From Bryobacterales bacterium (GTDB taxonomy: Bacteria > Acidobacteriota > Terriglobia > Bryobacterales > Bryobacteraceae): a stretch of 38,289 nt of DNA. The notes under the pieces were generated by a model. The model had not been told where the DNA came from, did no database searches, and saw only the letters and a list, made by a program, of their open reading frames with translations. Positions 9,859 to 37,407 of the stretch are shown one piece after another. Position 1 is the first letter of the stretch. Every line of letters begins with the position of its first letter. A program made the translations under genes and the position numbers. The stretch lies in assembly GCA_003167255.1 (NCBI GenBank), contig PMTR01000157.1, positions 1 to 38,289 on the forward strand, in the 5' to 3' direction.

Positions 9859-9869
9859 GTCACGGGCAA

Positions 9870-10352
9870 ATGACTTTTTCTCCACAACTCGAAGCGCGGT
9901 TCGCGAAGCTTCTGACAAGCTACCCGCCGGGGCGGCAGCGGTCGGCGATGATTCCGATGCTGCTTTACGCGCAGGATGAGCTGGGGCATATTTCCGACGA
10001 ATTGATCGAGGAAGTGGCCAAACGGGTGGGCGTGAGCACGTTGCAGGTGAACGAAGTGCTCTCGTATTACTCCATGCTGCACCGCAAGCCGCTCGGGAAA
10101 TTCCACGTGCAGGTGTGCACCAACATCAGTTGCCTGCTGCACGACGGCGATAAGCTGTACGAACATGCGTGCAAGAAATTGGGGATTGGGCACAAGGAAG
10201 TGACGGCGGACGGCCAGATCTCGATCGAAGAAGTGGAGTGCATCGGGGCCTGCTCGTGGGCGCCGGCCGTGCAGGTGAATTACGATTTCCACCATTTTGT
10301 AACGCCGGAGAAGCTGGATGAGCTTCTGGACGGCCTGAGGAAGAAGCCCTAG
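9870..10352 (+). CDS. nuoE: NADH-quinone oxidoreductase subunit E
   Basis: NADH-dehydrogenase-module subunit (24-kDa type), 160 residues, thioredoxin-like. It binds the [2Fe-2S] cluster N1a through Cys83 and Cys88 (VCTNISC) and Cys124 and Cys128 (CIGAC); all four are present. An N-terminal helical domain (ARFAKLLTSYPPGRQRSAMIP) precedes it, as usual. It lies 11 nt after nuoD and 3 nt before nuoF, consistent with the E-F-G NADH-oxidising module. Confidence 0.96.
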   Translation: MTFSPQLEARFAKLLTSYPPGRQRSAMIPMLLYAQDELGHISDELIEEVAKRVGVSTLQVNEVLSYYSMLHRKPLGKFHVQVCTNISCLLHDGDKLYEHACKKLGIGHKEVTADGQISIEEVECIGACSWAPAVQVNYDFHHFVTPEKLDELLDGLRKKP

Positions 10353-10355
10353 CGC

Positions 10356-11669: not shown

Positions 11670-13706
11670 ATGGCGGATCTGCTTAAGCTGACAATCGACG
11701 GGAAGGACGTGCAGGCGGCGCCGGGCACCCTGGTGATCGACGCGGCCAAGACGGTGGGGATCGAGATCCCGGCGTTCTGCTACTACGAGGGGCTATCGCT
11801 GCAAGCGGCCTGCCGCATGTGCCTCGTCGAAGTGGAGAAGATGCCGAAGCTGATGACGGCGTGCACGCTGCCGGTGGCCGAGGGCATGGTGGTGCGGACG
11901 GAGACACCGCAGGTGGCCACGGCGCGGAAATACATGCTGGAGTTCCTGCTGACGAATCATCCGCTGGATTGCCCGGTGTGCGACAAGGGCGGCGAGTGCG
12001 AACTGCAGGACATGGCCTTCCGCTACGGCGCGGGCGAAAGCCGATACACGGAAACCAAGGTGCATACGCCGGAGAAGCAGTTTTCGCCGGTGGTGTTCTT
12101 CGACGCGCCGCGCTGCATCCTGTGCTTCCGCTGCGTGCGCATCTGCAGTGAAGGGCTGGGCGTGGGCGCGCTGGGCGTGATCAACCGCGGAGTGTTTTCG
12201 GAGATCGCACCCAATCAGGGAGACCACCTGGAGTGCGACGAGTGCGGCGCGTGCATCGACATCTGCCCGGTGGGCGCGCTGACCAGCGGGGCTTACCGCT
12301 ACCAGACCAGGCCGTGGGAGATGACCCACGTCGGGACCATCTGCACGCACTGCTCGGACGGCTGCAAGACCACGCTGGGAACGCGCAACGACCGCATTAT
12401 CCGCGGCAACAATCGCGACCGGTCGGGCATAAACGGCGAATTCCTGTGCATTAAAGGGCGGTACGGATTCGATTTCTACGATCACCCAGAGCGGCTTCAG
12501 GCGCCGCTGCTGCGCACCAACGGAAAGCTGGAAGAAGTTTCGTGGTCGCGGGCGTTGTGGGCGGTGGCGGCGCGATTTAAGCAGACGATCGCGGAAGGCG
12601 GCAGCGTGGGGGTGATCGGCTCCAACCACACCACCAACGAAGAGAATTACTATCTGGCGAAATTCGCGCGAGAGATATTGAAGACCAACCACATCGACCA
12701 TCACCGCACCGGCGATGTGACCACGCTGCTGGACGCGTTGAGCGGCAAGAGCGGAACACTGGCGACGGTGGCGGACCTGTACGAGCGCAAGGCGGTGCTG
12801 GTGCTGGGCGCGGACCTGGCGCTGGAACATCCGCTGCTGGCTTACCAGATGCGCGCCAACTGGCGGCATCACAAGGCGCATATCTACGCGGTAACCGAAA
12901 GGCCGGTGCGAGAAGACCAGTACGCCACGGCGAGCGTGCGCGGGCGGGATTACGAAGGGCTGCGCGAGAAGCTCAAGGCAGAGCCGGAACTGGTAGTGGT
13001 GTTCGACGATTCTTACAAGGGCGACGATATCCGCAAGCTGGTGGAGTTCGGCGAAGGGCTGGGGATTCCGGTGCGGTACATCTGCCTGGTGGATGATTCG
13101 AATTCGCGCGGCGCGCTGGACATGGGGCTGGTTCCGGGGCCGGGCGGGATGAGAATCCCGGAGATGCTGGCCGAGGAATTGAGCGTGCTGTGGGTGGTGG
13201 GATCGAACCCGCTGAAGCCGGCGGCCGGCGGCCTGGGGGCCACGGAAAAGAAGTGCGGCTTCCTGGTGGTTCAGGACATGTTCCTCACCGAAACCGCGCA
13301 GCAGGCGGACGTGGTTTTGCCGGCGGCGTGTGCGTACGAGAAGAACGGAACCATCACCAACGTTTCGGGCGAAGTGCAGCGGCTGAAGCGGGCGGTCAGC
13401 ACCATGGGCGCAAAACCGGACCTGGAGATCATGGGGTTCATTGCGCGCGAGATGGGGATGGCGGCGGCGCTGGGGCCGTGGACGCCGGAAGCGGTATTTG
13501 AAGAAATTCGCAAGAACATTCACGGGTACGAAATTTCGTTGCCCGCGATTGAGATGGGCGGCGCGGCGCAGACCATGCCGGTGAACGGGAGGATTCCCGT
13601 GGATAACCGGCCGGATCTGGTGCACTCTCGCCATAACGGTCTGTTCACGTCCGGCACGCTCGGGCGTTATTCTAAGGTTCTGAAATCAGTGGTGGAAAGT
13701 CGCTGA
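11670..13706 (+). CDS. nuoG: NADH-quinone oxidoreductase subunit G
   Basis: Large iron-sulfur subunit of complex I, 678 residues. All cluster ligands are visible: N1b (2Fe-2S) Cys37, Cys48, Cys51, Cys65; N5 His97, Cys101, Cys104, Cys110; N4 Cys149/152/155 and Cys199, and the second ferredoxin-type set Cys159 with Cys189/192/195. A CTHCSDGC motif (Cys225, 228, 232) plus Cys260 (FLCIKGR) supplies the off-path cluster N7, which many lineages have lost. The rest is a molybdopterin-oxidoreductase-like domain without evident cofactor. It is shorter than the E. coli protein (about 908 residues), mainly at the C-terminus, as in many bacteria. In the normal path N5 hands electrons to N6a in NuoI, which is missing from this locus. 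Confidence 0.96.
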   Translation: MADLLKLTIDGKDVQAAPGTLVIDAAKTVGIEIPAFCYYEGLSLQAACRMCLVEVEKMPKLMTACTLPVAEGMVVRTETPQVATARKYMLEFLLTNHPLDCPVCDKGGECELQDMAFRYGAGESRYTETKVHTPEKQFSPVVFFDAPRCILCFRCVRICSEGLGVGALGVINRGVFSEIAPNQGDHLECDECGACIDICPVGALTSGAYRYQTRPWEMTHVGTICTHCSDGCKTTLGTRNDRIIRGNNRDRSGINGEFLCIKGRYGFDFYDHPERLQAPLLRTNGKLEEVSWSRALWAVAARFKQTIAEGGSVGVIGSNHTTNEENYYLAKFAREILKTNHIDHHRTGDVTTLLDALSGKSGTLATVADLYERKAVLVLGADLALEHPLLAYQMRANWRHHKAHIYAVTERPVREDQYATASVRGRDYEGLREKLKAEPELVVVFDDSYKGDDIRKLVEFGEGLGIPVRYICLVDDSNSRGALDMGLVPGPGGMRIPEMLAEELSVLWVVGSNPLKPAAGGLGATEKKCGFLVVQDMFLTETAQQADVVLPAACAYEKNGTITNVSGEVQRLKRAVSTMGAKPDLEIMGFIAREMGMAAALGPWTPEAVFEEIRKNIHGYEISLPAIEMGGAAQTMPVNGRIPVDNRPDLVHSRHNGLFTSGTLGRYSKVLKSVVESR

Positions 13707-13714
13707 GCCGCTCC

Positions 13715-14896
13715 ATGGACTCATTCATCGTCATCAGCCTGATTAAGGAAGTGGTGGTTTTTGGGGTGCTCTTGACCACGCTGGCTTACCTGCAATGGGT
13801 AGAGCGGAAAGTGATCGCGCACATCCAGGTGCGTCCGGGGCCGTACCGGGTGGGGCCGCACGGGTTGCTGCAACCGGTCGCCGACATCATCAAGCTGCTC
13901 ACCAAGGAAGACCTGGTGCCACCCTACGTGAACAAGCCGCTGTATCTGTTGGCGCCGTTTCTGGCGATGACCATGGCGCTGCTTTCTATTTCGGTGATTC
14001 CGTTCGGCCCGCAGATCCAGGTGGCGGGCTATCAGACGTACATGCAGCTCACGGATTTGAATATCGGCGTGCTGTTCGTGCTGGCGGTGTCGTCGATGGG
14101 AGTTTACGGAATCGCGCTGGCGGGCTGGTCTTCGAATAACAAGTACGCGCTGCTGGGCGGGCTGCGCAGCTCGGCGCAGATGATCAGCTACGAGCTGCCA
14201 ATGTCGCTGGCGATCGCCGCGCCGCTGCTGATCTCGAACACCTTGAGCCTGCGGGGGCTGGTGGAGAAGCAGGCGGGCGGCATCTGGAACTGGAACGTGC
14301 TGCACGGACCGTTTCCGCAGATCGTCAGCTTCATCATTTTCTTGATTGCGGCGTTCGCGGAGACCAACCGCATTCCTTTCGATTTGCCGGAAGCCGAGAA
14401 CGAGCTGGTGGCGGGCTTCCATACCGAGTACAGCTCGATGAAGTTCGCATCGTTCTTCATGTCGGAATACGCCAACATGATCACGGTAAGCTGCATGGCC
14501 ACGCTGCTGTTTTTGGGCGGCTGGGTGGCGCCGTGGCCGGCCGAATACGGATCGAGCTACGTGCCGGCGGCGATCTTCCTTTTGGCTGGCCTGGTGGCGC
14601 TCTATCACGGGTTCCACCCGGCGCGGCGGCGCGACGGATACACGCTTCCGGTCTTTGGCGTGCTGTTTTTGATTGCGGCGGCGGTGTTTCTGCTGCCGAT
14701 GGTGCAAAGCTGGCTGATTCCGCTGTTCTGGTTTTGCGCCAAGACGGGCGGGATTCTTTTCGGGTTTATGTGGATTCGCGGGACGCTGCCGCGCTTCCGC
14801 TACGACCAACTGATGGGCTTCACGTGGAAGTTTCTTTTCCCGGTGGCCATGCTGAACCTGCTGGTGACCGGTTTTCTGGTGGCATTGAGATCCTGA
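13715..14896 (+). CDS. nuoH: NADH-quinone oxidoreductase subunit H
   Basis: Membrane subunit (ND1 type) of complex I that forms the entrance of the quinone channel, 393 residues with about eight or nine transmembrane helices. Signatures: LQWVERKVIAHIQVRPGPYR, VGPHGLLQPVADIIKLLTKED (quoted short: GLLQPVADIIKLLTKED), the charged quinone-proximal loop AETNRIPFDLPEAENELVAG, and YSSMKFASFFMSEYANM. The next gene in nearly all operons is nuoI, but here nuoJ starts one base after the nuoH stop, with no room for nuoI. Confidence 0.97.
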   Translation: MDSFIVISLIKEVVVFGVLLTTLAYLQWVERKVIAHIQVRPGPYRVGPHGLLQPVADIIKLLTKEDLVPPYVNKPLYLLAPFLAMTMALLSISVIPFGPQIQVAGYQTYMQLTDLNIGVLFVLAVSSMGVYGIALAGWSSNNKYALLGGLRSSAQMISYELPMSLAIAAPLLISNTLSLRGLVEKQAGGIWNWNVLHGPFPQIVSFIIFLIAAFAETNRIPFDLPEAENELVAGFHTEYSSMKFASFFMSEYANMITVSCMATLLFLGGWVAPWPAEYGSSYVPAAIFLLAGLVALYHGFHPARRRDGYTLPVFGVLFLIAAAVFLLPMVQSWLIPLFWFCAKTGGILFGFMWIRGTLPRFRYDQLMGFTWKFLFPVAMLNLLVTGFLVALRS

Positions 14897-14897
14897 C

Positions 14898-15398
14898 ATG
14901 GACGTCATACTTTTTCTGGTCTTCGCGATTATCGCGGTGGTATGCGCCATCAACGTGGTGGTGCAGACGCATCCCATTTCGAGCGCCGTCTCGCTGGTGG
15001 GTGTGATGGCATCGCTGGCAGTGCTCTACCTGCTGCTGGGCGCGGAGTTTCTGGCGGCGGCGCAGGTGATTGTTTATGCCGGCGCGATCATGGTGCTGTT
15101 CGTGTTCGTGATCATGCTGCTCAACGCGGGGGCGGAAGCCAAGAAGGGCCGGTCGTTCACGGCGCAGTTGCTGGGATTGCCGCTGCTGGTGGCCTTCCTG
15201 GGGCTGATGGCGTACTTCGTCCAGCGGCTGTTTCCGCAAAGCACCATGGTGCACTTCGGCGGATTCAGGGGTGGCGGGGCGGCGGAAATCGGCCACGCGC
15301 TGTTCACCACTTTCCTGCTGCCGTTCGAGGTGACCTCGATTCTGATTCTGGTCGCGATCCTGGGGGCCATCGTTCTGGCGCGAAAGGAGATGGACTAA
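14898..15398 (+). CDS. nuoJ: NADH-quinone oxidoreductase subunit J
   Basis: Membrane subunit (ND6 type) of complex I, 166 residues with five predicted helices. The conserved helix-3 region AAAQVIVYAGAIMVLFVFVI (residues 54-73) carries the pi-bulge segment of this family, and it is followed by MLLNAGAEAKKGRS. The C-terminal helix is PFEVTSILILVAILGAIVLA. Its stop codon TAA overlaps the nuoK ATG by one base (15398), so translation is likely coupled. Confidence 0.96.
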   Translation: MDVILFLVFAIIAVVCAINVVVQTHPISSAVSLVGVMASLAVLYLLLGAEFLAAAQVIVYAGAIMVLFVFVIMLLNAGAEAKKGRSFTAQLLGLPLLVAFLGLMAYFVQRLFPQSTMVHFGGFRGGGAAEIGHALFTTFLLPFEVTSILILVAILGAIVLARKEMD

Positions 15399-15709
15399 TG
15401 CTGACGGCCGTTCCGATCTCCTGGTTTCTGACGTTGAGCGCGGTGTTGTTCGCGTTGGGCGTGGCGGGCTTCGTGTTCCGGCGCAACATCATCACGGTCT
15501 TCATGTCCATCGAGCTGATGCTGAACGCGGTGAACCTGAGCTTTGTGACCTTTTCGTACCACCAGAAGCAGGTAAACGGCCACCTGTACGCGTTCTTCGT
15601 GATGGTGGTGGCCGCGGCCGAGGCGGCCGTGGGGCTGGCGATTATCCTGACGATCTTCAAGAACCGTTCCACCTTGAATATTGACGACGTCGATTCGATG
15701 AAGAACTAA
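15398..15709 (+). CDS. nuoK: NADH-quinone oxidoreductase subunit K
   Basis: Membrane subunit (ND4L type) of complex I, 103 residues and three helices. The helix-2 segment VFMSIELMLNAVNLSFVTFS has the conserved Glu of the proton path (SIELMLN), and AFFVMVVAAAEAAVGLAIIL holds the second conserved Glu. The ATG overlaps the nuoJ stop by one base. The usual family start (a short hydrophilic N-terminus, then hydrophobic helix 1) agrees with this ATG, whereas the frame is open far upstream inside nuoJ only by chance. A palindromic repeat starts 7 nt after its stop. Confidence 0.95.
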   Translation: MLTAVPISWFLTLSAVLFALGVAGFVFRRNIITVFMSIELMLNAVNLSFVTFSYHQKQVNGHLYAFFVMVVAAAEAAVGLAIILTIFKNRSTLNIDDVDSMKN

Positions 15710-15716
15710 AGATATG

Positions 15717-15811
15717 TTCACCGCCGAGACGCAGAGACACGGAGAAAAAACTGAGATGTCCGATTACTGTGTTTCTCGTATTTCCCGGCGTCTCCGCGTC
15801 TCGGCGGTGAA
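15717..15811. repeat. Inverted repeat between nuoK and nuoL
   Basis: Arms 15717-15747 and 15781-15811 match in 27 of 31 positions (TTCACCGCCGAGACGC at the outer end), with a 33-nt loop. It fills most of the 117-nt gap, the only sizeable gap in the nuo operon. It resembles the widely dispersed 'gagacgcagaga' type of palindromic repeat. It may attenuate or stabilise the mRNA, or be a neutral insertion. Confidence 0.75.
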
Positions 15812-15826
15812 GGAATTCGGCTCCTA

Positions 15827-17676
<1,850 letters not shown>

Positions 17677-17680
<4 letters not shown>

Positions 17681-19242
17681 ACCTGCTGACTCTGGTTCTG
17701 ATCATGCCGCTGGTGGGATTCCTGGCCTCGCTCACCATTCCGCGGCGCTTCCCGCAAAACAGCCGGGCGTGGGCGCTGGCGGTGTCGCTGGCCACTTTCG
17801 CGCAATCGCTGATTCTGCTCTCGCAGTTCAACCGCAACACCGCGAGCGACCAGTTTACGGTAGACATCCCCTGGATCCCGACGCCGGAGATTCATTTCCA
17901 TGTGGCGGCCGACGGCATCAGCTTGTGGCTGGTTCTGCTCTCCACTTTCCTGACGCCCATCTGCGTGCTGATCTCCTGGAAGCACGTGCAGGACCGGGTC
18001 AAGGAATTCTTCGCGTTCCTGCTGCTGCTGGAGTTCGGCCTGGTGGGCGTATTCATCGCGCAGGATCTCTTCCTGTTTTACGTGTTCTGGGAAGTCTCCC
18101 TGGTCCCGATGTATTTCCTGATCGGCATCTGGGGCCATTCGCGGCGCATCTACGCGGCGGTGAAGTTCTTCCTGTACACCATGGCCGGTTCCGTGCTGAT
18201 GCTGGTGGCCATCATCTACTTGTATAACCGCACCGCGACGTTCAGCTACGCGGCCATTCTGGACATGCTGGCCAGCGGGAAACTGACTTTCGCGCCGGGC
18301 GAGCAGATGCTGCTCTTCCTGGCCTTCTTCGTGGCGTTTGCCATCAAGGTGCCGCTCTTTCCACTGCATACCTGGCTGCCGGACGCGCACGTGGAGGCGC
18401 CCACGGCCGGATCTGTGATGCTGGCGAGCGTCATGCTGAAGATGGGCACGTTCGGAATCCTGCACTACTGCCTGCCGCTGTTCCCGGTGGCGGCGCGGCG
18501 ATGCGCTCCGTGGATTGCGGTGCTGGCGATTATCGGAATCATCTACGGCGCGCTGGTGGCCATGGTGCAGCCCAACATGAAGAAGCTGGTGGCCTATTCC
18601 TCGGTGAGCCATTTGGGCTTCGTGGTGCTGGGAATTTTCTCGTTCACGCAGATGGGCCTGGATGGCGCGGTCTACCAGATGCTGAGCCACGGGATTACCA
18701 CCGGCGCGCTGTTCGCGTTAGTGGGATTCCTCTACGAGCGGCGCCACTCCCTCGAGATTTCCGAGTACGGCGGCGTGGCGACGGTGGCGCCCTGGCTCTC
18801 CACGGCCTTCCTGATCGCGACCCTGGCCAGCATTGGACTGCCGCTGCTGAACAACTTCGTGGGCGAGTTCCTGGTGCTGCAGGGCACGGCGATGACGCAC
18901 TTTAGCTGGACGGCCTGGGCCGCCATCGGCGTGATCCTCTCGGCCTGCTACATGCTGTGGATGTACCAGCGGGTGTTCTACGGCGTGACCGCGGCCGATG
19001 TGAAGCGTCATATGCCGGACCTGGGGCTGCGCGAATGGGCGGCGATTGTGCCGCTGATCGTGATGATGGTGTGGATGGGAGTTTACTCGCAGAGTTTCCT
19101 GCCGCCGGTGAGCAAGACCACCGCGCGCGTGCTGGAACAGACCCACATCAACGTGCCGGAACGGGTCGAGTTGCGAGAAAAGCCGCGAGAAAAGACGCGA
19201 GAGAAGACGCGCGGGGAGACGGAGGTAGCGCATGCCCGTTAA
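17677..19242 (+). CDS. nuoM: NADH-quinone oxidoreductase subunit M
   Basis: Antiporter-like membrane subunit (ND4 type) of complex I, 521 residues. The ATG at 17677 overlaps the nuoL stop (ATGA) and gives the typical N-terminus MNLLTLVLIMPLVGFLA; the frame is open further upstream but only inside nuoL. The conserved Glu is in FYVFWEVSLVPMYFLIG. HTWLPDAHVEAPTAGSVMLA is the ND4 core signature. The last ~22 residues form a repetitive charged tail (REKPREKTREKTRGETE) outside the membrane that is not a usual NuoM feature. It overlaps nuoN by 11 nt. Confidence 0.96.
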
Positions 19243-20695
19243 TTTTGGCGCTACCGCGACGGACCTCATCCGCTTCCTGCCGGAGATCATCCTGACGGTG
19301 ATGGGCACGGCGTTGATGGTGCTCGATCCCGTCCTGCACAAGCGGGCTTCGCATGCGTTCGGCCACTTGAGCATCTTCGCGCTGCTGGCGGGTATCGGAG
19401 GAGCGGTCTATGCTCAAAGCAATCCCGGCACGGCGTTTGGCGGCATGCTGGTGGTGGATGGCTTCGCCACGTACTTCCGCGTGCTGGTGATGGTGGTTGG
19501 TATTCTGACCATTCTGCCGTCTTATGGATTCCTGGCGCGGCAGCAGGCGGAAACCAGCGAATACCACGCGCTGCTGCTCTTCTCCATCGCCGGTCAGTGC
19601 ATGATGGCGGCGGCCAACGATCTGATCATCGTCTTCATCGGCCTGGAGATTTCCTCCATCTCGAGCTACGTGCTGGCGGGCTATTTACGCGACGACAAGC
19701 GGTCGAATGAAGCGGCCCTGAAATATTTCCTTCTGGGCTCGTTCGCGACCGCGTTTTTCCTTTACGGCGTGGCGATCACCTACGGCACGGTGGGCACGGT
19801 GAATCTGACCGCGATCCGCGCGGCCCTCTCCGGGGCAGATGCGCCGCCGGTGGTGTTCATCACGCTGGCGGCGGCGCTGATGTTCGTGGGGTTGGGATTC
19901 AAAGTCTCGGCGGCGCCCTTCCAGGTCTGGGCGCCGGACGTGTACCAGGGCGCGCCGACGCCGGTGGCGGCGTTCCTCTCGGCCGGTCCCAAGGCCGCTG
20001 CGTTTGCGGTCTTTCTGCGGATCTTCCTGACGGCGTTTGGGCCCATCGGCGCCGACTGGCTGCCGCTGGTGTGGATGGCGGCGCTGCTCTCCATGACCGT
20101 GGGAAACTTCGCTGCGCTCATGCAGACCAATGTGAAGCGCATGCTGGCCTACAGTTCCATCGCGCACGCGGGCTATGTGCTGGTGGCGCTCACGGCGCAG
20201 TCGGATACGGGCACGGCGGCGGCCATGTTCTACCTGGCGGCGTACGCGTTCATGAACATCGGGGCGTTCGCGGTGGTGAGCCACGTGTCGGGGCGCGGCG
20301 AGCGGTATCAGAATATCGACGACCTGGCGGGCCTGGGACGCAAGCAGCCGATGATGGCGGCGATGCTGACCATCTTTCTGCTTTCGCTGATCGGCGTGCC
20401 GCTCACCGGCGGTTTCTTCGGCAAGTTCTATATCTTCAAAGCAGCGCTGGAATCGCACCTGGTGTGGCTGGCGGTGCTGGGCCTGCTGAACAGCGCGGTG
20501 GCCGCGTATTACTACCTGCGCATCCTGGTGATGGTCTACATGCACGAACCGGGAGAAGCCGCCGGGCAAACCGAGCCGCTGACGCCGGGCTTCCGGCTGG
20601 CGCTGATTCTGCCGGCGCTCGGCACGCTGTTCCTGGGCATCTTCCCGACGTGGGTGCTGGACTGCGCGGGAAAATCGGCGACGCTGGTGAAGTAG
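19232..20695 (+). CDS. nuoN: NADH-quinone oxidoreductase subunit N
   Basis: Antiporter-like membrane subunit (ND2 type) of complex I, 487 residues and about 14 helices. It shows IVFIGLEISSISSYVLAGYL with the conserved Glu, KVSAAPFQVWAPDVYQGAPT (the ND2 core), and MLAYSSIAHAGYVLVAL. The ATG at 19232 lies inside the nuoM 3' end (11-nt overlap), so translation is coupled. It is the last nuo gene; an antitoxin gene starts 2 nt after its stop. A diverged copy of the last ~39 codons is found at 27018-27134. Confidence 0.97.
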   Translation: MPVNFGATATDLIRFLPEIILTVMGTALMVLDPVLHKRASHAFGHLSIFALLAGIGGAVYAQSNPGTAFGGMLVVDGFATYFRVLVMVVGILTILPSYGFLARQQAETSEYHALLLFSIAGQCMMAAANDLIIVFIGLEISSISSYVLAGYLRDDKRSNEAALKYFLLGSFATAFFLYGVAITYGTVGTVNLTAIRAALSGADAPPVVFITLAAALMFVGLGFKVSAAPFQVWAPDVYQGAPTPVAAFLSAGPKAAAFAVFLRIFLTAFGPIGADWLPLVWMAALLSMTVGNFAALMQTNVKRMLAYSSIAHAGYVLVALTAQSDTGTAAAMFYLAAYAFMNIGAFAVVSHVSGRGERYQNIDDLAGLGRKQPMMAAMLTIFLLSLIGVPLTGGFFGKFYIFKAALESHLVWLAVLGLLNSAVAAYYYLRILVMVYMHEPGEAAGQTEPLTPGFRLALILPALGTLFLGIFPTWVLDCAGKSATLVK

Positions 20696-30717: not shown

Positions 30718-30751
30718 GAGCGCTCTGAAATTAGTGTACACTCGGAATCGT

Positions 30752-30907
30752 AGTTGAAGTTCCGCTGGTGTTCGGGAAGCTGGTGAAAATCCAGCACAGC
30801 CCCGCTACTGTAAGCGCGGAGAGCCCTTCGAAGATGCCACTGTTCCGGCGACGGGATGGGAAGGCCGACGGGTTCGATGAGGCGCAAGTCAGGAGACCGG
30901 CCGGCGG
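30752..30907 (+). promoter_or_regulatory. Cobalamin (B12) riboswitch
   Basis: The RNA upstream of the receptor shows the conserved cobalamin aptamer elements in order: GGGAAGCTGGTGAAAATCC, then GCACAGCCCCGCTACTGTAA, and finally the B12 box AGTCAGGAGACCGGCC near 30888-30903. The variable P-stem region lies between them. Binding of a corrinoid should repress the downstream operon. The length (~155 nt) and the 38-nt distance to the receptor start are typical. Class (AdoCbl or aquocobalamin) was not assigned. Confidence 0.95.
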
Positions 30908-30911
30908 AAGC

Positions 30912-30940
30912 GAGCTCGCACAGCTCTCTAGGGAGGAGCT
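30912..30940 (+). promoter_or_regulatory. Shine-Dalgarno-masking hairpin and competing stem
   Basis: AGCTCTCT (30922-30929) can pair with GGAGGAGCT (30932-30940), with one bulge, which buries the ribosome binding site GGAGGAG of the receptor gene. GAGCT (30912-30916) can instead pair with AGCTC (30922-30926). The two helices cannot form together, which gives a plausible off/on switch for the riboswitch at the level of translation. No T-tract is present. Confidence 0.6.
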
Positions 30941-30944
30941 TGGT

Positions 30945-33140
30945 ATGCGTCATAACGTCGGGGCCCTCGCGGCCTGTTGCCTCTTTTTTCCCGCCGGCCT
31001 TTTTGCTTCTCAAGTGAAAGGAACGGTCACCGATCCATCCGGCGCGCCCGTGGGCGGCGCGCAAATTTCCGTCGTGAGCCGCCTAGGCGTGGAGGCCCAG
31101 ACGGTATCGGCCATGAATGGCTCGTTCGAGCTTGACGTCGTGGATATTCCCGATTCGCGCCTGGTAGTAACGGCGCTTGGGTTTAGTACGCAGACGCTTA
31201 GCACGCGGACGCTCGCGGCCGGCCCCTCGCTTGCGGTGCGCCTCGAAATCGCGCCTCAAGTGGATTCGGTGCGCGTGGTGGGCTCCACCATCGATGTGCC
31301 GGCCAGCATGCAGGGCGGCAGCGTGAGCATCGTGCCGGGCGAAGAGATCCGGCAGCGAAATGAACCGTACGCCATGGACCTGCTGCGGTATCTGCCGGGC
31401 ATGGCTTTCAACCAGAGCGGCGCGCCGGGCAGCGTGGCGAGCCTGTTTCTGCGCGGCGGAAACTCGAATTTCAGCCTGGTGGAAATCGATGGCGTTCCGG
31501 TGAATGCGTTCGGCGGCAGCTTCGATTTCGCCCATATTCCAGCGGAGGCGGTGGAGAGCATCGACGTGATTCGCGGGCCGCAATCGTCGGTGTACGGACC
31601 ATATGCCAACAGCGGCGCGATCAATTTCACCACGCGGCAACCGGGAGCCGTTCCGGAGCTGGATGTGCTGGCGGAGGGCGGAACGTTCGGCGAGCATCGC
31701 TTCGGGATTACGGGTTCGGGGGCCGTGGCGGGGTTCGGGATCGCGGCGTCGGTGTCGCGCATCGATACCGGCGGCCCGGTCCAGAACAGCGATTACCACA
31801 ACCAGGATGCGCTGCTGAACGTAACCCGGCGCTTTGCGCGGCAAAGCATTTCGCTGCACGCCGATTTCGATTTCAATAACGTGGGCGAGCCTGGGCCATG
31901 GGGCTCCGATCCCAAAGATACGTTCACGGGCATCGACACCATCAGCCGCGAAAGAAATAATTTCGGCGATTTCGGGCTGCATTACGAAGCCGATCTTTCG
32001 GCGCGCGTGCGCGAAGAGGTGTTCGGAAGCTTCTTCGTGGACAACAGCGGTTTTGCGAGCCCATACGGCGCCAGCTTCAGCAAAGACATGCGCTGGCAGG
32101 GGGAAGCGCGCACGGTAGTGAGCGTCACGCGCCAGTATACGACGGCGTTTGGCGTTTCGGCGGGGCGCGAAGAAACCAAGAACACGTTCATCAGCGACGC
32201 CAATTTCGAGACGTTCCCCATCGCGCGCACCGATCTGGCGGCCTATTGGGAGAACCGCTTCGAGATCGGCGGCCGGTTTTTCCTGAACGCCGGCGTGCGC
32301 GTCGAGTGGATCCGGACGCCGGCGGTCCCCACCGACGGATACTCGCGGCCGTTCTTCCCGGCGAACACGGTGTCGCGCGCCAACCCGAAAGTTTCCGCGG
32401 CGTACGTAGTGCGGCCCGGCGCGACGCGGCTGCACGCCTCGTTCGGAACCGGCATCCGGCCGCCGAGCGGATTTGAAATCGCCTTCACGGATAACCCGCA
32501 GCTCAAGCCGGAGCGCACCCGCAGCGTGGATGCGGGCCTGGAGCAGAAGTTGTTCGGCAACCTCCTGTTGCTGGACGCCACGTACTTTTACAACCGCTAT
32601 TACGATTTGATCGTGACGCTAGGCGGGTCGCTGGCGCAGTTGAGCCGGTATCAATCGGCTAACCTGGCCAACTCGCGCGCCCAAGGGGCGGAATTCTCGG
32701 CTGCGCTGCGGCCGGGCCGGCGGCTGTTTGTGACGGGATCGTACACGCTGCTCGGGACGCGGATTCTCTCGCTCGACGGCGACACCAGCCTGGCGCCGCT
32801 GCCCTTTCAGGTGGGGCAGCCGCTGACGCGGCGGCCGAGGAACTCCGGCAGCATCGTGGCGACGTACACGCGCGGCCGTGTCACGGCCGACGCGACGGGT
32901 TATTTCCGCGGCAAGACGCTGTATGAAGAGCCGACCTACGGCGCGACAGGCGGGTTGTTCTGGAACCCGGGCTTCGCTAATGTAGGGATCAACTTGAATT
33001 TTGCGCTGGGCCATGGCGTGACGGCGTACGGCAGCCTGCGCAACGCGCTCGACCGGCACTATGAAGAGGTGTTTGGGTACCCCTCGCCGCGGCTGAATTT
33101 CGTAGCCGGGCTGAAGTGGAAGATATCGAAGGGGCAATAA
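30945..33140 (+). CDS. TonB-dependent receptor, probable cobalamin (BtuB-like)
   Basis: A 731-residue outer-membrane protein. Signal peptide about residues 1-21 (GALAACCLFFPAGLFA). Residues 23-90 are a carboxypeptidase-regulatory-like beta-sandwich (QVKGTVTDPSGAPVGGAQIS), common in TonB receptors of this phylum. The plug domain follows: EIRQRNEPYAMDLLRYLPGM, FLRGGNSNFSLVEIDGVPVN, VESIDVIRGPQSSVYGPYAN. The rest is the 22-stranded barrel, ending YPSPRLNFVAGLKWKISKGQ. The ATG at 30945 has a strong ribosome binding site (GGGAGGAG). The cobalamin riboswitch in front and the adenosyltransferase directly behind indicate corrinoid uptake; a specific substrate cannot be proved. No tonB/exbBD is nearby. 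Confidence 0.92.
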   Translation: MRHNVGALAACCLFFPAGLFASQVKGTVTDPSGAPVGGAQISVVSRLGVEAQTVSAMNGSFELDVVDIPDSRLVVTALGFSTQTLSTRTLAAGPSLAVRLEIAPQVDSVRVVGSTIDVPASMQGGSVSIVPGEEIRQRNEPYAMDLLRYLPGMAFNQSGAPGSVASLFLRGGNSNFSLVEIDGVPVNAFGGSFDFAHIPAEAVESIDVIRGPQSSVYGPYANSGAINFTTRQPGAVPELDVLAEGGTFGEHRFGITGSGAVAGFGIAASVSRIDTGGPVQNSDYHNQDALLNVTRRFARQSISLHADFDFNNVGEPGPWGSDPKDTFTGIDTISRERNNFGDFGLHYEADLSARVREEVFGSFFVDNSGFASPYGASFSKDMRWQGEARTVVSVTRQYTTAFGVSAGREETKNTFISDANFETFPIARTDLAAYWENRFEIGGRFFLNAGVRVEWIRTPAVPTDGYSRPFFPANTVSRANPKVSAAYVVRPGATRLHASFGTGIRPPSGFEIAFTDNPQLKPERTRSVDAGLEQKLFGNLLLLDATYFYNRYYDLIVTLGGSLAQLSRYQSANLANSRAQGAEFSAALRPGRRLFVTGSYTLLGTRILSLDGDTSLAPLPFQVGQPLTRRPRNSGSIVATYTRGRVTADATGYFRGKTLYEEPTYGATGGLFWNPGFANVGINLNFALGHGVTAYGSLRNALDRHYEEVFGYPSPRLNFVAGLKWKISKGQ

Positions 33141-33144
33141 AGGA

Positions 33145-33780
33145 ATGAGTGAGCAGCCGTTCGACAAGCCGCGTATCTCGATCAACCGCGTGTATACGCG
33201 GCAAGGCGACCAGGGCGAAACCGCGCTGGCGGGCGGCCAGCGCGTGCCGAAGGACGGCGCGCGCATCGAAGCCTATGGCACGGTGGACGAGTTGAACTCC
33301 TTCGTGGGCGTGGCGCGCTCGACTGTCGCGGAGATGGCGGCGGGCGAGCCGCGTCTCGCGGTACTCGCGGCCATCCTGCTGCGCGTGCAGCACGAGCTCT
33401 TCAATTTGGGTTCGATTCTGGCGACCCTGCCGGAAGACGTGCATCCGAAACAGGCGCGCGTCACCGAAACCGAAGTGGCGCAACTGGAAATTGAGATGGA
33501 CCGCATGAACGAAGATCTGCCGCCGTTGCGCTCCTTCGTGCTGCCGGGCGGAAGCCGGCTGAACGCGGAGTTGCACGTCTGCCGGACGGTGTGCCGCCGC
33601 GCGGAGCGGGCCGCGGTCGAGCTGGCGCGGGCAGAGAGCATTCCTCCGGAGACGGTGAGATACTTGAACCGGCTGAGCGATGCCATGTTCGTATGGAGCC
33701 GCTGGGCGAGCCATGTGGCGGGCGCCCCGGAAACCTTGTGGGAACCCAACCAAGCCGCGTCGGGGCGGTCTGAGCGATAA
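33145..33780 (+). CDS. Cob(I)alamin adenosyltransferase, PduO type
   Basis: A cytosolic enzyme of 211 residues that transfers the 5'-deoxyadenosyl group of ATP to cob(I)alamin to give adenosylcobalamin. PduO/MMAB-family signatures: the N-terminal ATP-binding motif YTRQGDQGETALAGG (residues 17-31), RIEAYGTVDELNSFVG (40-55), and FVLPGGSRLNAELHVCRTVC followed by RRAERA, which is the second active-site region. The helical bundle then closes with LNRLSDAMFVWSRW. It lies 4 nt downstream of the receptor stop, so it shares the riboswitch-controlled transcript. This supports corrinoid uptake followed by conversion to coenzyme B12. Confidence 0.95.
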   Translation: MSEQPFDKPRISINRVYTRQGDQGETALAGGQRVPKDGARIEAYGTVDELNSFVGVARSTVAEMAAGEPRLAVLAAILLRVQHELFNLGSILATLPEDVHPKQARVTETEVAQLEIEMDRMNEDLPPLRSFVLPGGSRLNAELHVCRTVCRRAERAAVELARAESIPPETVRYLNRLSDAMFVWSRWASHVAGAPETLWEPNQAASGRSER

Positions 33781-33801
33781 TCAGTGATTAAGGAGAAATC
33801 G

Positions 33802-34332
33802 ATGCAAGAGAATTCGGCAAGGCCATTGGCCATCGGCCTGACAGTTCTGGGTGGTTTGGCGCGGTTCGCGCAAAACCTGAATTTCGCGCCCGTAGGGGCT
33901 TTGAGCCTCTTTGCCGGCGCGCGCCTGCGGGGATGGCAGGCTTACCTGCTGCCGATCGCATTAATGGCGGTGACGGATCCGTTTCGGGGCGGCTACTCCT
34001 TCGCAACCCCGTTCATTTATGCCAGCTTCCTGATCAACGTCTGGATTGGCTCGCGGCTGCGCGGCACGGAAAGTCCGAAATGGATTGGCGGAGCGGCCCT
34101 CGTCGGAAGCGCGCAATTCTTCCTGCTCTCCAACTTCGGGACATGGCTGGCTCCCGGCTTCGCTTACAGCCACACGCCGGCCGGGTTGATGGCCTGCTAC
34201 ATCGCGGCCATTCCGTTCTTCCGGAACACGCTGGTTTCGGACCTGCTCTTTACCGCCGTCTTCTTCGGGCTGCACGCCGTGCTGAGCCGCACGGTGGCGA
34301 GGTCCGAGCGCGTGGCGGTCGCGACGGCGTAG
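33802..34332 (+). CDS. DUF6580-like integral membrane protein, putative transporter
   Basis: A 176-residue membrane protein with about five or six helices: residues 11-27, 31-44, 50-64, 71-87, 98-115 and 130-165. Recognisable pieces are LNFAPVGALSLFAGARLRG, FIYASFLINVWIGSRLRG and FLLSNFGTWL. The shape resembles ECF-type substrate-binding (S) components. I believe it belongs to the family called DUF6580, described as putative transport proteins, but cannot confirm it. The ATG at 33802 is chosen because AAGGAG lies a few bases upstream. It sits between the adenosyltransferase and the Dph6-like gene, and no BtuC/BtuD is present in the window, so a role in bringing corrinoid across the inner membrane is a reasonable guess. 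Confidence 0.75.
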   Translation: MQENSARPLAIGLTVLGGLARFAQNLNFAPVGALSLFAGARLRGWQAYLLPIALMAVTDPFRGGYSFATPFIYASFLINVWIGSRLRGTESPKWIGGAALVGSAQFFLLSNFGTWLAPGFAYSHTPAGLMACYIAAIPFFRNTLVSDLLFTAVFFGLHAVLSRTVARSERVAVATA

Positions 34333-34333
34333 C

Positions 34334-35005
34334 GTGAAAACTCTGCTGGCTTGGAGCTCCGGCAAGGACAGTGCCTGGGCCTTGCACCGGCTGCGGCAAC
34401 AGGGCATTCCGGTGGCCGCTTTGCTCACCACCATCAACGAGCTAGCGGACCGCGTGGCGATGCATGGCGTGCGCCGGCGGCTGCTCGAAGCGCAGGCGGA
34501 ATCGGCCGGGCTTCCGCTATGGGTAGTGCCGTTGCCGTGGCCCTGCACCAACCCGGATTACGAATCGCGCATGGCCGAGGCGTGCGCGAAGGCGGTGGCG
34601 GAAGGCTTTGACGCGATGGCGTTCGGAGATCTGTATCTGCGCGACGTGCGGCAATACCGCGAGCGGCAGTTGGCCGGTACGGGTCTGCAGCCGGTATTCC
34701 CGCTTTGGGAACTGCCCACGGCATCGCTCGCGCGGGAGATGATCGCGGGGGGCTTGCGGGCGCGGCTCTCGTGCGTGGATTCGAAGGCGCTCGACGCCAG
34801 TTTCGCCGGCCGCGAATTCGACCTGGCTTTGCTCGAGAGCCTGCCGGCCACGGTCGACCCGTGCGGCGAAAACGGCGAGTTTCATACCTTTGCCTACGAC
34901 GGCCCGATGTTTGGCTCGCCCATGCGCGTGGAGTCCGGCGAGATCCGCGACATCGATGGTTTTGTTTACGCGGACTTGCTGCCTTGCCCCGAATCGTCTC
35001 ACTAA
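34334..35005 (+). CDS. Dph6-like ATP pyrophosphatase (PP-loop)
   Basis: A 223-residue cytosolic PP-loop ATPase of the Dph6/MJ0570 (COG2102) type. The PP-motif SGKDSAWAL is at residues 9-17, and the family end pattern ENGEFHTFAYDGPMF is at about 178-192. GFDAMAFGDLYLRDVRQYRE is a further conserved part, as is FPLWELPTASLAREMIAGGL. In archaea and eukaryotes Dph6 amidates diphthine on elongation factor 2, a modification bacteria lack, so this homologue must do something else; members probably adenylate a carboxylate and amidate it. The GTG start at 34334 lies 1 nt after the previous stop. Lying between the putative transporter and BtuF, a corrinoid-linked role is a fair inference. Confidence 0.85.
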   Translation: MKTLLAWSSGKDSAWALHRLRQQGIPVAALLTTINELADRVAMHGVRRRLLEAQAESAGLPLWVVPLPWPCTNPDYESRMAEACAKAVAEGFDAMAFGDLYLRDVRQYRERQLAGTGLQPVFPLWELPTASLAREMIAGGLRARLSCVDSKALDASFAGREFDLALLESLPATVDPCGENGEFHTFAYDGPMFGSPMRVESGEIRDIDGFVYADLLPCPESSH

Positions 35006-35898
35006 TCGCCAGCGCCACGGAGATCGTCGATGCGCTCGGAGAACTGCCGCACCTGGTGGGCCGCTCGCATGAATGCGATTATCCCGAAGCGGTGAAGCGG
35101 CTGCCGGTTTGCACGCGGCCGCGCATCTTGGTGGAGGCCGACAGCCGCGAGATCGACCGGCAGGTGAAGGAACGGGCGCGCACGGCGGTTTCCATTTACG
35201 AAGTCTTCGACGCCGTCCTGCGCGAGCTGAAACCGACCCACATCCTGACGCAGATCCAGTGCGAAGTTTGCGCGGTGAGCTTGCGGGATGTGGAACAGGT
35301 CATGGCGCGCGGCATCGAGGGGAATCCGCAGATTGTGTCGCTGCAGCCCGATTCGCTGGCGCAGATTTGGGAGGACGTGCGGCGCGTGGCACGGGCGCTC
35401 GGGATTGAGCCGCGCGGCGAAGAAGTCGTGAGCGAACTCCAGAGCCGGATGGCCGCGCTGCGGCCGGCAGCCAGCCCCCAGCCGCGCGTGGCGTGCATTG
35501 AGTGGATCGAGCCGCTGATGGCGGCGGGCAACTGGACGCCCGAGTTGGTGGAGATGGCCGGCGGGATCAATCTGTTCGGCGAAGCAGGGAAGCACTCGCC
35601 GTGGATGACCTGGGAGCAGCTCGCGGAGGCCGATCCGGACATTCTGGTGATTGCGCCCTGCGGGTTTGACCTGGCGCGCACCGGGCAGGAGATGCACTGG
35701 CTGGCGGACCGGCCCGGCTGGCGCAACCTGCGGGCGGTGCGAACGGGCCGCGTTTACCTGGCGGACGGCAACCAGTATTTCAACCGGCCGGGGCCGCGGG
35801 TGGTGGAAACGCTGGAGGCGCTGGTGGAAATGCTCCATCCGGCTGGGGGCGCGCCCCGGCTTCGGGGCCACGCGTGGCGCGTTATGATGAACTTGTGA
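34984..35898 (+). CDS. btuF: Cobalamin-binding protein, BtuF-like, without signal peptide
   Basis: A 304-residue periplasmic-binding-protein fold of the BtuF/COG0614 type. It begins (TTG start) LPRIVSLIASATEIVDALGE, with LPHLVGRSHECDYPEAV next, the pattern of cobalamin- and siderophore-binding proteins. Residues 93-96 are CEVC in TQIQCEVCAVSLRDVE. The C-terminal lobe has WIEPLMAAGNWTPELVEMAG, then PDILVIAPCGFDLARTG and RVYLADGNQYFNRPGPR. There is no signal peptide, and the TTG lies 22 nt inside the Dph6-like gene, so it appears to be cytosolic. It may bind corrinoid inside the cell. The ABC permease and ATPase normally needed are not nearby. Confidence 0.85.
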   Translation: MPRIVSLIASATEIVDALGELPHLVGRSHECDYPEAVKRLPVCTRPRILVEADSREIDRQVKERARTAVSIYEVFDAVLRELKPTHILTQIQCEVCAVSLRDVEQVMARGIEGNPQIVSLQPDSLAQIWEDVRRVARALGIEPRGEEVVSELQSRMAALRPAASPQPRVACIEWIEPLMAAGNWTPELVEMAGGINLFGEAGKHSPWMTWEQLAEADPDILVIAPCGFDLARTGQEMHWLADRPGWRNLRAVRTGRVYLADGNQYFNRPGPRVVETLEALVEMLHPAGGAPRLRGHAWRVMMNL

Positions 35899-35899
35899 C

Positions 35900-36853
35900 A
35901 TGGCGTTGATCGCGGTTTCGGGCCATCCCGGCTGCCGGTTCGAGGAGCTGGCGCGCATCAGCGCGCAGCGGCTGGGCTTCGAGCTGCTGACGCAGTCGCG
36001 GCTGCGGGTTCTCATTGAAAAGGAATTTGGCGCGGATGTGCAGATTCCGGATAAGGCCTATCCCAGCCTGGTGACGTCGATTCTGGCGCGGGCCGCCACC
36101 GAAGCGCACATTGTCTATTGCGCCGTCGGCGGCGAGTTGCAGGCGCGCCATTTCGCGGGTATGCTGCGGGTGCACGTGGTGGCGCCGGAAAGCGTGCGCA
36201 TCGGCAATCTGATGCTCGACAACCACATGGAGCGCGCCGCCGCCCGGCAATTGCTGTTGCAACTGGAGGCGGAGGAACGCGCCAGCCGCAAAGCCAAGTT
36301 CGGCAAGACGCGCGCCACCGCCGACCTTTTCGACGTCTTGCTGAACGCCGAATCCCTGACCTCCGAGCAGATGGCCGAGTTGATCGAAACCGCCGTAACC
36401 TCGACCGGGCTCAAGGAGCGCGGTTACCTGGCGGCGGCGGCCGAGGCGCAGCTCCAGTTTCAGATGCGGCTCAAGCTGGCGCGCTTTGGCATGGTTCCGC
36501 CGGGCCACGTGACCCTGCGCAAGAAAGGCTTCGCGCACCAGAGCGAGGAGATGTTCGCCAACCTGCTGGACTTTTACCGCATCGCGTGGGAGTACGAGCC
36601 GCGCAGTTTCCCGGTGCAGTACGGCACCGATGGCGCGGTGCTGGAATCCTTCACTCCCGATTTTTATTTGCCGGAATTCGATCTCTACGTGGAACTGACC
36701 ACCATGAAACAATCACACGTGACGCGCAAGAACCGCAAAGTGCGGCTGCTGCGCGAGCTGTACCCGCACCTGAACATCCAGGTCTTCTACCAGAAGGACT
36801 TTGAGAACCTGATTTTCAAGTACGGGCTGGCGGAACGGCCGGTGCAGGCATGA
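35900..36853 (+). CDS. Cytidylate-kinase-like protein with C-terminal nuclease-like domain
   Basis: A 317-residue protein with two parts. Residues 1-200 resemble cytidylate-kinase-like proteins: MALIAVSGHPGCRFEELARI, FAGMLRVHVVAPESVRIGN and the helical LLNAESLTSEQMAELIETAV. The P-loop is degenerate: SGHPGCRFEE has no Lys where GxxGSGK would be. Residues 205-317 look like a PD-(D/E)XK nuclease fold: HQSEEMFANLLDFYRIAWEY (with Glu217/218), FTPDFYLPEFDLYVELTTMK (Asp254 and Glu265) and LNIQVFYQKDFENLIFKYGL. The usual E-x-K is replaced by ELTT with Lys270 later. The gene starts 1 nt after btuF and overlaps hpt by 4 nt (ATGA). Family function is unknown to me; a nucleotide- or nucleic-acid-linked job is suggested by hpt. 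Confidence 0.72.
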   Translation: MALIAVSGHPGCRFEELARISAQRLGFELLTQSRLRVLIEKEFGADVQIPDKAYPSLVTSILARAATEAHIVYCAVGGELQARHFAGMLRVHVVAPESVRIGNLMLDNHMERAAARQLLLQLEAEERASRKAKFGKTRATADLFDVLLNAESLTSEQMAELIETAVTSTGLKERGYLAAAAEAQLQFQMRLKLARFGMVPPGHVTLRKKGFAHQSEEMFANLLDFYRIAWEYEPRSFPVQYGTDGAVLESFTPDFYLPEFDLYVELTTMKQSHVTRKNRKVRLLRELYPHLNIQVFYQKDFENLIFKYGLAERPVQA

Positions 36854-37407
36854 GCGCGGCCACGCTGCCGGGAGTGGACCGCGTTCTGTTCACCGAGGAA
36901 CAGATCGAGGAACGGATTCGCGAAGTCGGCGCCCGGATTTCGCGCGATTACCAGGGCAAAACGTTGAAGCTGGTGGGCGTGCTCAAGGGGTCGGTGTTCT
37001 TCCTCACGGCGCTGGCGCGGCGCATCGACGTGCCGGTGAAAATCGATTTCCTGGCCATTTCCAGCTTCTCGAACAAGAGCGGCGCTCCCGGTCTGGTGCG
37101 GATCGCCAAAGACCTGGATGAGAGCATCGAGGGCGAAGACGTTCTGCTGGTGGAAGACATCGTGGACACGGGCTTCACGTTGCGGTACCTGCTGCAGGCG
37201 CTGGCGTGGCGGGGGCCGAACTCGCTTGCGGTGTGCACGTTTCTGGACCGCAACTCGCGGCGGATTGTGCAGGCACAGGTGGATTACCGGTGCTTCGAGA
37301 TTCCCGACCGCTTTGTAGTGGGTTTCGGCCTGGATCACAACCAGCTCTATCGCAACCTGAGCTACGTGGCGGTGATGAAGCCCGACAAGGGTACGGCGCA
37401 GCACTAG
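36850..37407 (+). CDS. hpt: Hypoxanthine phosphoribosyltransferase
   Basis: A cytosolic purine-salvage enzyme of 185 residues that makes IMP (and usually GMP) from hypoxanthine or guanine and PRPP. The PRPP-binding signature VEDIVDTGFT is at residues 101-110 with the preceding VLLVE hydrophobic strand. LVGVLKGSVFFLTALAR (41-57) and FVVGFGLDHNQLYRNLSYVA near the C-terminus are typical of bacterial Hpt. The ATG overlaps the upstream gene stop by 4 nt, so translation is coupled. Its TAG stop codon (37405-37407) forms the left end of a palindromic repeat. It need not be linked to B12 functionally. Confidence 0.95.
   Translation: MSAATLPGVDRVLFTEEQIEERIREVGARISRDYQGKTLKLVGVLKGSVFFLTALARRIDVPVKIDFLAISSFSNKSGAPGLVRIAKDLDESIEGEDVLLVEDIVDTGFTLRYLLQALAWRGPNSLAVCTFLDRNSRRIVQAQVDYRCFEIPDRFVVGFGLDHNQLYRNLSYVAVMKPDKGTAQH

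Follow-up and report, generated by a model that had tools for sequence, protein, structure and literature searches.

How does a bacterium carry a corrinoid across its inner membrane when its B12 operon encodes an outer-membrane receptor but no BtuC-type permease? The question is raised by a contig from a Bryobacterales bacterium of the Acidobacteriota (GenBank assembly GCA_003167255.1, contig PMTR01000157.1), which we analyzed over its positions 1 to 38,289; this whole stretch of 38,289 nucleotides is referred to here as the window. At 30749-35898 it holds a single compact + strand operon made up of a cobalamin riboswitch and five genes, one of which encodes a small membrane protein of the family DUF6580. 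We consider it probable that this is a corrinoid import and salvage operon controlled by the cobalamin riboswitch, with DUF6580 in the role of BtuCD. Gene content, distribution, and predicted fold likewise make it likely that DUF6580 is a solitary, BtuM-like corrinoid importer of the S-component fold that replaces BtuCD. An earlier note, made from the sequence alone, had proposed the membrane protein as a candidate for a different inner-membrane corrinoid route, and near exclusion of the BtuC-type permease FecCD, co-occurrence with cobalamin riboswitches, and the fold of the protein all lend support to that proposal.

A riboswitch-led B12 operon without FecCD

The features of the operon are as follows.

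30749-30919, + strand: cobalamin riboswitch aptamer, RF00174 (Rfam, 111 bits, E 3.4e-27, full model length, above the gathering score of 31.5 bits)
30945-33140, + strand: TonB-dependent outer-membrane receptor, BtuB-like by context (Pfam Plug, E 2.1e-21; barrel, E 1.9e-38)
33145-33780, + strand: PduO-type corrinoid adenosyltransferase, PduO_Nterm (TIGR00636, 183.7 bits against a cut-off of 108.45)
33784-34332, + strand: DUF6580 membrane protein, 182 residues, six helices (PF20221, E 2.3e-41, 142.2 bits against a gathering score of 27)
34334-35005, + strand: ATP pyrophosphatase of the DUF71-B12 type, Diphthami_syn_2, Dph6-like (PF01902, E 5.1e-30)
34984-35898, + strand: BtuF-like protein, Peripla_BP_2 (PF01497, E 3e-19)

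Thus, the composition given in the earlier note (a riboswitch-led locus with receptor, adenosyltransferase, membrane protein, Dph6-like ATPase, and BtuF-like protein) was confirmed by Rfam and by Pfam and NCBIfam, and so was the DUF6580 likeness of the membrane protein. The genes are separated by gaps of 4, 3, and 1 bases and then by a 22-base overlap, if the BtuF-like gene starts at the TTG at 34984; the DUF6580 gene starts at either the ATG at 33802 or the GTG at 33784.

The riboswitch is the sole RF00174 match listed for the host genome in a run with a stricter filter. Its 3′ end, as read by eye, lies just 5′ of a purine-rich ribosome-binding site and the receptor ATG at 30945, which suggests translational control. 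Riboswitches of this class turn their operons off when cobalamin is plentiful. The receptor scored 120.2 bits against the NCBIfam BtuB model (TonB-B12, TIGR01779), under its cut-off of 599.7, and we therefore call it BtuB-like from context only. The translation of 34334-35005 contains the motif ENGEFH; in the available text of PMC3541065, replacement of EGGE/DxE by ENGEF/YH is the signature of the DUF71-B12 subgroup and, to the extent of that text, places the ATPase in the B12 branch and not in diphthamide synthesis. The full order of riboswitch, receptor, PduO, DUF6580, DUF71, and BtuF recurs in one other acidobacterial genome (locus L035), and two further loci (L036 and L040) keep it up to DUF6580.

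We then asked what importers the host genome (7.35 Mb, 98.85% complete) encodes. No FecCD/BtuC permease was found anywhere in its 7.35 Mb at E 0.001 (BtuM and BtuD-type ATPases were not searched for), although the same search was positive in 13 of 14 control genomes. The absence of a BtuC-type permease noted earlier for the locus thus extends to the genome, and we rejected the idea of a btuCD set located elsewhere. Such a set, combined with a lack of co-occurrence between DUF6580 and B12 loci, had been named as the outcome that would speak against DUF6580; neither was found. CbiC, which serves to mark synthesis of the corrin ring, was not found in the host genome either, and de novo B12 synthesis was rejected on this single marker. 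A BacA-like B12 route was rejected as well: PF06472, which we take to cover mycobacterial BacA, was not found in the host or in any of 99 Acidobacteriota genomes (the phylum sample), and the search for it was positive in two of the 14 control genomes, E. coli included. Within the operon itself, no candidate permease other than DUF6580 was found.

DUF6580 and FecCD are nearly mutually exclusive

To compare genomes, we used the phylum sample and a class sample of 80 genomes from the class to which an Ignavibacteria metagenome-assembled genome with a DUF6580 locus (L066) belongs. FecCD was counted as present at E < 1e-20, and weaker matches were counted as absent; most of the latter span only profile positions of about 80 to 309, and these we take to be related ABC-3 permeases. 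Partial matches in G052 and G078 counted as present and G299 (E 6.5e-20, perhaps a true FecCD fragment) as absent.

In the phylum sample, DUF6580 was found in 14 of the 99 genomes, and FecCD occurred in 81 of the 85 genomes without DUF6580 versus 2 of the 14 with it. Both genes were present in 2 genomes (G061 and G095, the latter with a DUF6580 fragment); 12 genomes had only DUF6580, 81 had only FecCD, and 4 had neither (Fisher p 1.6e-10, with genomes treated as independent of kinship). The 12 genomes with DUF6580 only span five families, with six of them from one family. Three of the genomes with neither gene are 79 to 83% complete, and the fourth is the near-complete G094, the only CbiC carrier among the 99. 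A cobalamin riboswitch is located about 1.4 kb from its CbiC gene, and G094 probably synthesizes B12 itself and has no need of import. CbiC was not found in the other 98, all 14 DUF6580 carriers among them.

The class sample gave the same picture. DUF6580 exceeded its cut-off in 39 genomes and FecCD was present in 41, occurring in 38 of the 41 genomes without DUF6580 versus 3 of the 39 with it (both, 3; DUF6580 only, 36; FecCD only, 38; neither, 3, one of which is G299; Fisher p 1.7e-15, on the same treatment of kinship). Seen from the other side, DUF6580 was present in 12 of the 16 phylum-sample genomes and 36 of the 39 class-sample genomes that lack strong FecCD, which makes it a concrete candidate importer for a good share of genomes without FecCD. 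In a planctomycete phylum sample drawn around another DUF6580 genome (G133, locus L075), DUF6580 occurred in only 3 of 99.

DUF6580 genes lie beside B12 features in many phyla

We scanned one genome per species, 84,980 species in all, for a DUF6580 pattern and obtained at least 588 matches, 533 of them encoding relatives, of which the best 80 were kept. These 80 scan loci were thus selected for resemblance to the window and for carrying a short motif, and their stretches total 0.89 Mb. An Rfam cobalamin-type riboswitch was present in 36 of them (4/11, 4/11, 6/11, 7/12, 5/15, and 10/20), one being RF01482. Since such riboswitches mostly number one or two per genome (genomes of 1.2 to 8.4 Mb), fewer than one would be expected by chance in 0.89 Mb. 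A BtuB-like receptor was found in 29 of the loci, DUF71 in 18, a BtuF-like protein in 15, PduO in 5, and FecCD in 2, where the receptor and BtuF profiles, grown from the window proteins, may also catch receptors or binding proteins for other ligands. One or more of riboswitch, BtuB, DUF71, BtuF, and PduO occurred in 43 loci. In 9, DUF6580 is itself the first gene after the riboswitch, and the DUF6580 genes of L058 and L075 are direct riboswitch targets. Strong FecCD was missing from 42 of 50 scan genomes, a set that leaves out 30 of the 80, gives no completeness, and shares G126 and G136 with the class sample.

The B12-linked loci, mostly from metagenome bins, come from Acidobacteriota, Planctomycetota, Verrucomicrobiota, Ignavibacteriota, Bacteroidota, Chlorobiota, Myxococcota, Pseudomonadota, Nitrospirota, and others. 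In a quick tree of 81 proteins they were scattered, with at least 19 label changes, in a topology with 11 of 78 inner branches well supported. Because the scan loci had been selected, we turned to the 37 DUF6580 loci still left in the Ignavibacteria-type class and drew 20 of them, blind to neighbors and sequence pattern; 14 of the 20 had a cobalamin riboswitch and 16 had a BtuB-like receptor. We sought conserved partners of DUF6580 in the loci without B12 genes, and none emerged.

A reverse survey started from riboswitches in 40 of 74 matching genomes from the class of another DUF6580 genome (L068, Gammaproteobacteria), in stretches of 7 to 9 kb and one of 574 bases. Among these 40 loci, DUF6580 was found in 2, BtuM-like proteins in 4, and FecCD in 1. 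One of the gammaproteobacterial riboswitch loci encodes, directly after BtuB, a predicted membrane protein of 188 residues (L165:4452-5015, − strand) that gave no sequence match in the Protein Data Bank (PDB) and none to the FecCD and DUF6580 profiles.

The predicted fold of DUF6580 is that of an S-component

From its size and helix count, DUF6580 had been guessed to resemble the S-components of energy-coupling factor (ECF) transporters, and two AlphaFold models, both with the six-helix S-component fold, bore this out. The model of the window protein was built from 81 sequences (predicted local distance difference test [pLDDT] 94.6, predicted template modeling score 0.89) and that of a gammaproteobacterial DUF6580 from 38 (pLDDT 95.7). 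When they were compared with the PDB by VIA-align, cobalamin-bound BtuM came top for both (8ovv/8c7p for the window model), at Z 13.6 over 160 residues and 3.4 Å for the window model and Z 13.9 over 159 residues and 3.2 Å for the gammaproteobacterial one; overall, BtuM entries aligned over 158 to 160 residues at 3.1 to 3.4 Å with 16 to 18% identity. After BtuM, 16 (window) and 20 (gammaproteobacterial) more S-component entries preceded any other fold. S-components reached down to Z 7.8 and 9.8, respectively, and unrelated folds began at 6.7 and 6.3; MreD stood at Z 8.2 for the gammaproteobacterial model.

In the window model, Arg occurs in loops 2 and 4 and in the C-terminal part, and loops 1, 3, and 5 are uncharged, a pattern that would make the latter three the periplasmic loops. 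A good many of the conserved residues are located in or beside them: Arg21, Pro/His24-25, Asn27, Asp59, Asn111, Trp115, Tyr122, and Gly128, although the window protein has Gln-Asn where the family has Pro-His (24-25). S-components bind their ligands in the region of the periplasmic loops. In helix 1, the window protein has an AxxxA motif (ARPLA, model residues 6-10), and the family consensus has no conserved AxxxA there. Cys132 (model numbering) is present in 18 of 22 unselected sequences and in 12 of the 13 sequences of alignment A1; its invariance in alignment A2 (81 rows) is in large part a product of the scan pattern, which required Cys. A cobalt-binding Cys was dropped as a hallmark of the family because 4 of the 22 unselected sequences lack it. 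Searches with the DUF6580 profile gave no match among PDB sequences, and PHROGs had no match for DUF6580.

Evidence against the importer reading, and alternatives

A number of results weigh against a role for DUF6580 as a replacement of BtuCD. Three of the 12 phylum-sample genomes with DUF6580 only (G044, G057, and G080) are only 72 to 86% complete, and strong FecCD was kept in the other 8 of the 50 scan genomes. Two loci, L074 and L099, each hold a BtuF-FecCD set together with a riboswitch-BtuB-DUF71-DUF6580 set, so that two routes can coexist. No B12 feature was seen in 37 of the 80 scan loci, and in the phylum sample a riboswitch lies beside DUF6580 in only 3 of the 14 genomes (G000, which is the host, G010, and G067); in the loci L015 and L016, DUF6580 comes after the receptor. 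For seven relatives from the same class, the surroundings of DUF6580 yielded no B12 gene. There, DUF6580 lies apart from the riboswitch-BtuB locus and strong FecCD is absent in six of the seven, so DUF6580 is tied to B12 in these genomes only through the missing FecCD. Family members from genomes with a retained FecCD, or at a distance from B12 genes, might act on other substrates.

The structural comparison has its own counterweights. BtuM (Z 13.9) is tied within 1 with FolT (13.4) for the gammaproteobacterial model and is not clearly separated from it. Foldseek alone gave no match at E 0.001 for either model: its best hit for the window model was an unrelated fold (E 0.75; best S-component, 0.96), its best for the gammaproteobacterial model was FolT (E 0.029), and BtuM was not among the best 50 rows for either. 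We also compared DUF6580 by hhalign with a BtuM profile made from four BtuM-like proteins of the gammaproteobacterial riboswitch loci, one of which matched 8c7p (phmmer, E 8.6e-36); the alignments were collinear over 145 and 169 columns, a weak match that was not significant (E 0.063 and 0.019, probability 1 to 2%). Moreover, a common fold does not establish a common function.

These results bear on three alternatives. The first is that the substrate is not the corrinoid but something related to it (a lower-ligand base, cobalt, or another small vitamin), the link of DUF6580 to B12 being indirect; this would fit the many vitamins transported by S-components and the 37 loci without B12 neighbors. 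We regard it as very improbable: DUF6580 is often paired with a riboswitch-led receptor and nearly excludes FecCD, both of which speak for the corrinoid itself, and genomes in which CbiC was not found, as in 98 of the phylum sample including the 14 DUF6580 carriers, have little need of cobalt for B12 synthesis.

DUF6580 might instead be a membrane-bound corrinoid-handling enzyme or sensor, with B12 translocated by another protein. Sensors and MreD also use the S-component fold (PMC11109136, available text), BtuM itself decyanates cobalamin (PMC6072759, available text), and in L074 and L099 DUF6580 occurs together with FecCD. A processing enzyme, however, need not exclude FecCD as DUF6580 nearly does, and the window operon shows no alternative candidate permease; we think such a role unlikely.

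Finally, DUF6580 might import corrinoid as the S-component of an ECF transporter, docking on EcfT and EcfA borrowed from a nickel/cobalt system of the host. The predicted fold would allow this, and a search for EcfT did turn up one of the CbiQ type in the host genome. It is grouped, however, with CbiM, NikR, and an ABC ATPase, which identifies a nickel or cobalt importer, and no EcfT match was found in the remaining 13 phylum-sample genomes with DUF6580. Docking of this kind therefore seems doubtful to us. The missing EcfT does little for a solitary DUF6580 importer either: EcfT occurs in only 25 of the 99 phylum-sample genomes, 24 of them among the 85 without DUF6580, so that most genomes lack it and DUF6580 genomes do not stand out in this respect.

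The BtuF-like protein is probably cytosolic

The earlier note took the last protein of the operon to be BtuF-like, and its Peripla_BP_2 domain agrees with this, but the periplasmic location that the name implies is improbable. Translated from the TTG at 34984, the protein begins MPRIVSLIASATE, which is the mature domain immediately; by eye, the start codon runs directly into RIVSLIASATE, and neither a signal peptide nor a lipoprotein signal is visible. We compared relatives by hydropathy, not with a signal-peptide program, using only matches of E < 1e-40 that start at the first positions of the profile. All 14 DUF6580-linked relatives measured lack a hydrophobic leader, with an ATG 1 to 9 residues before the domain, whereas 7 of 9 FecCD-linked relatives carry a leader. 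Taken together, these results suggest that the BtuF-like protein of the window is probably cytosolic and not periplasmic.

Surroundings of the operon

Downstream, at 35900-37407, the window contains a cytidylate-kinase-like open reading frame (PF13189) with a weak nuclease-like C-terminal match and then a hypoxanthine phosphoribosyltransferase gene, a pair that also lies 3′ of the B12 operon in L035 and L036. Complex I (nuo) genes occupy 8632-20695, upstream of the B12 locus, and an Acido-Lenti-1 RNA lies at 75-118 (43.6 bits).

A proposed import route

We propose that the receptor, with TonB, would carry corrinoid to the periplasm, where DUF6580 would bind it at the periplasmic face through loops 1, 3, and 5 and, with no ABC ATPase involved, pass it through the inner membrane. 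In the cytosol, the BtuF-like protein, which shows no signal peptide, may accept the corrinoid, PduO would adenosylate it on entry and so trap it metabolically, and the DUF71-B12 protein, to judge from the available text of PMC3541065, may serve salvage or remodeling of non-native cobamides where needed. At high cobalamin levels, the riboswitch would turn the operon off. From gene content, distribution, and predicted fold we infer transport, its direction, the energy that drives it, and the function of the BtuF-like protein as acceptor. A more general version, in which DUF6580, a cytosolic BtuF-fold protein, DUF71, and PduO form a BtuCD-free and ATPase-free route in about a dozen phyla, with its direction set by the cytosolic acceptor and by adenosylation, is put forward tentatively.

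If correct, DUF6580 would be a second family, besides BtuM, of B12 carriers that have the S-component fold and work without an ECF module, and the role of a cytosolic BtuF would become a question in its own right. According to the available text of a 2021 review (PMC8123684), many such transporters for B12 import are still to be identified. DUF6580 was named in none of the 5.39 million open-access papers covered, subscription papers and databases such as SEED lying outside the search, and the open literature on BtuM, BtuB, riboswitches, signal-less BtuF, and novel transporters yielded no description of the family; an earlier prediction may exist under another name. For BtuM, an earlier prediction from genome context is cited in the available text of PMC6072759. 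Its frequent place in B12-controlled operons, its predicted likeness in fold to a known B12 carrier, and its occurrence mainly in genomes without the classical B12 pump make DUF6580 a strong candidate for the B12 importer that many bacteria appear to be missing at the inner membrane.

Comparison with known systems

The window operon resembles the DUF71-B12 salvage clusters of de Crecy-Lagard et al. (2012, PMC3541065) in having a DUF71 gene of the ENGEFH type beside B12 genes, although the neighbors named in the available text of that paper are BtuCDF and CbiB, and not DUF6580. With BtuCDF it shares its place in the pathway and an adjoining BtuB-like receptor; it differs in that no FecCD was found in the genome and in that its BtuF-like protein has no visible signal peptide. 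The S-components of ECF transporters (FolT, BioY, RibU, ThiT, PanT, and CbrT) resemble DUF6580 in fold and in their conserved residues near periplasmic loops, but their partner EcfT was not matched in 13 of the 14 DUF6580 genomes of the phylum sample.

BtuM of Thiobacillus denitrificans and relatives (PDB 8c7p and 8ovv) is a solitary B12 transporter of the six-helix S-component fold that is also predicted for DUF6580. By the tests made, we do not place DUF6580 in the BtuM family, and the two differ in spread, DUF6580 occurring in many phyla and BtuM mostly in Proteobacteria (PMC6072759, available text). The invariant Co-binding Cys80 of BtuM faces a gap in DUF6580 in the weak hhalign alignment, Cys132 being located elsewhere. 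BtuM-like proteins, too, adjoin BtuB in cobalamin-riboswitch loci, and both families are found mostly in genomes without FecCD and without EcfT. Judged by eye, the helix 1 Arg, the common loop 1 His (Asn in the window protein), and the Asp at the end of helix 3 are similarly placed in the two; the pocket residues of BtuM include His28 and Asp67 (PMC6072759, available text), which stand at places comparable to conserved residues of DUF6580. DUF6580 may thus work like BtuM.

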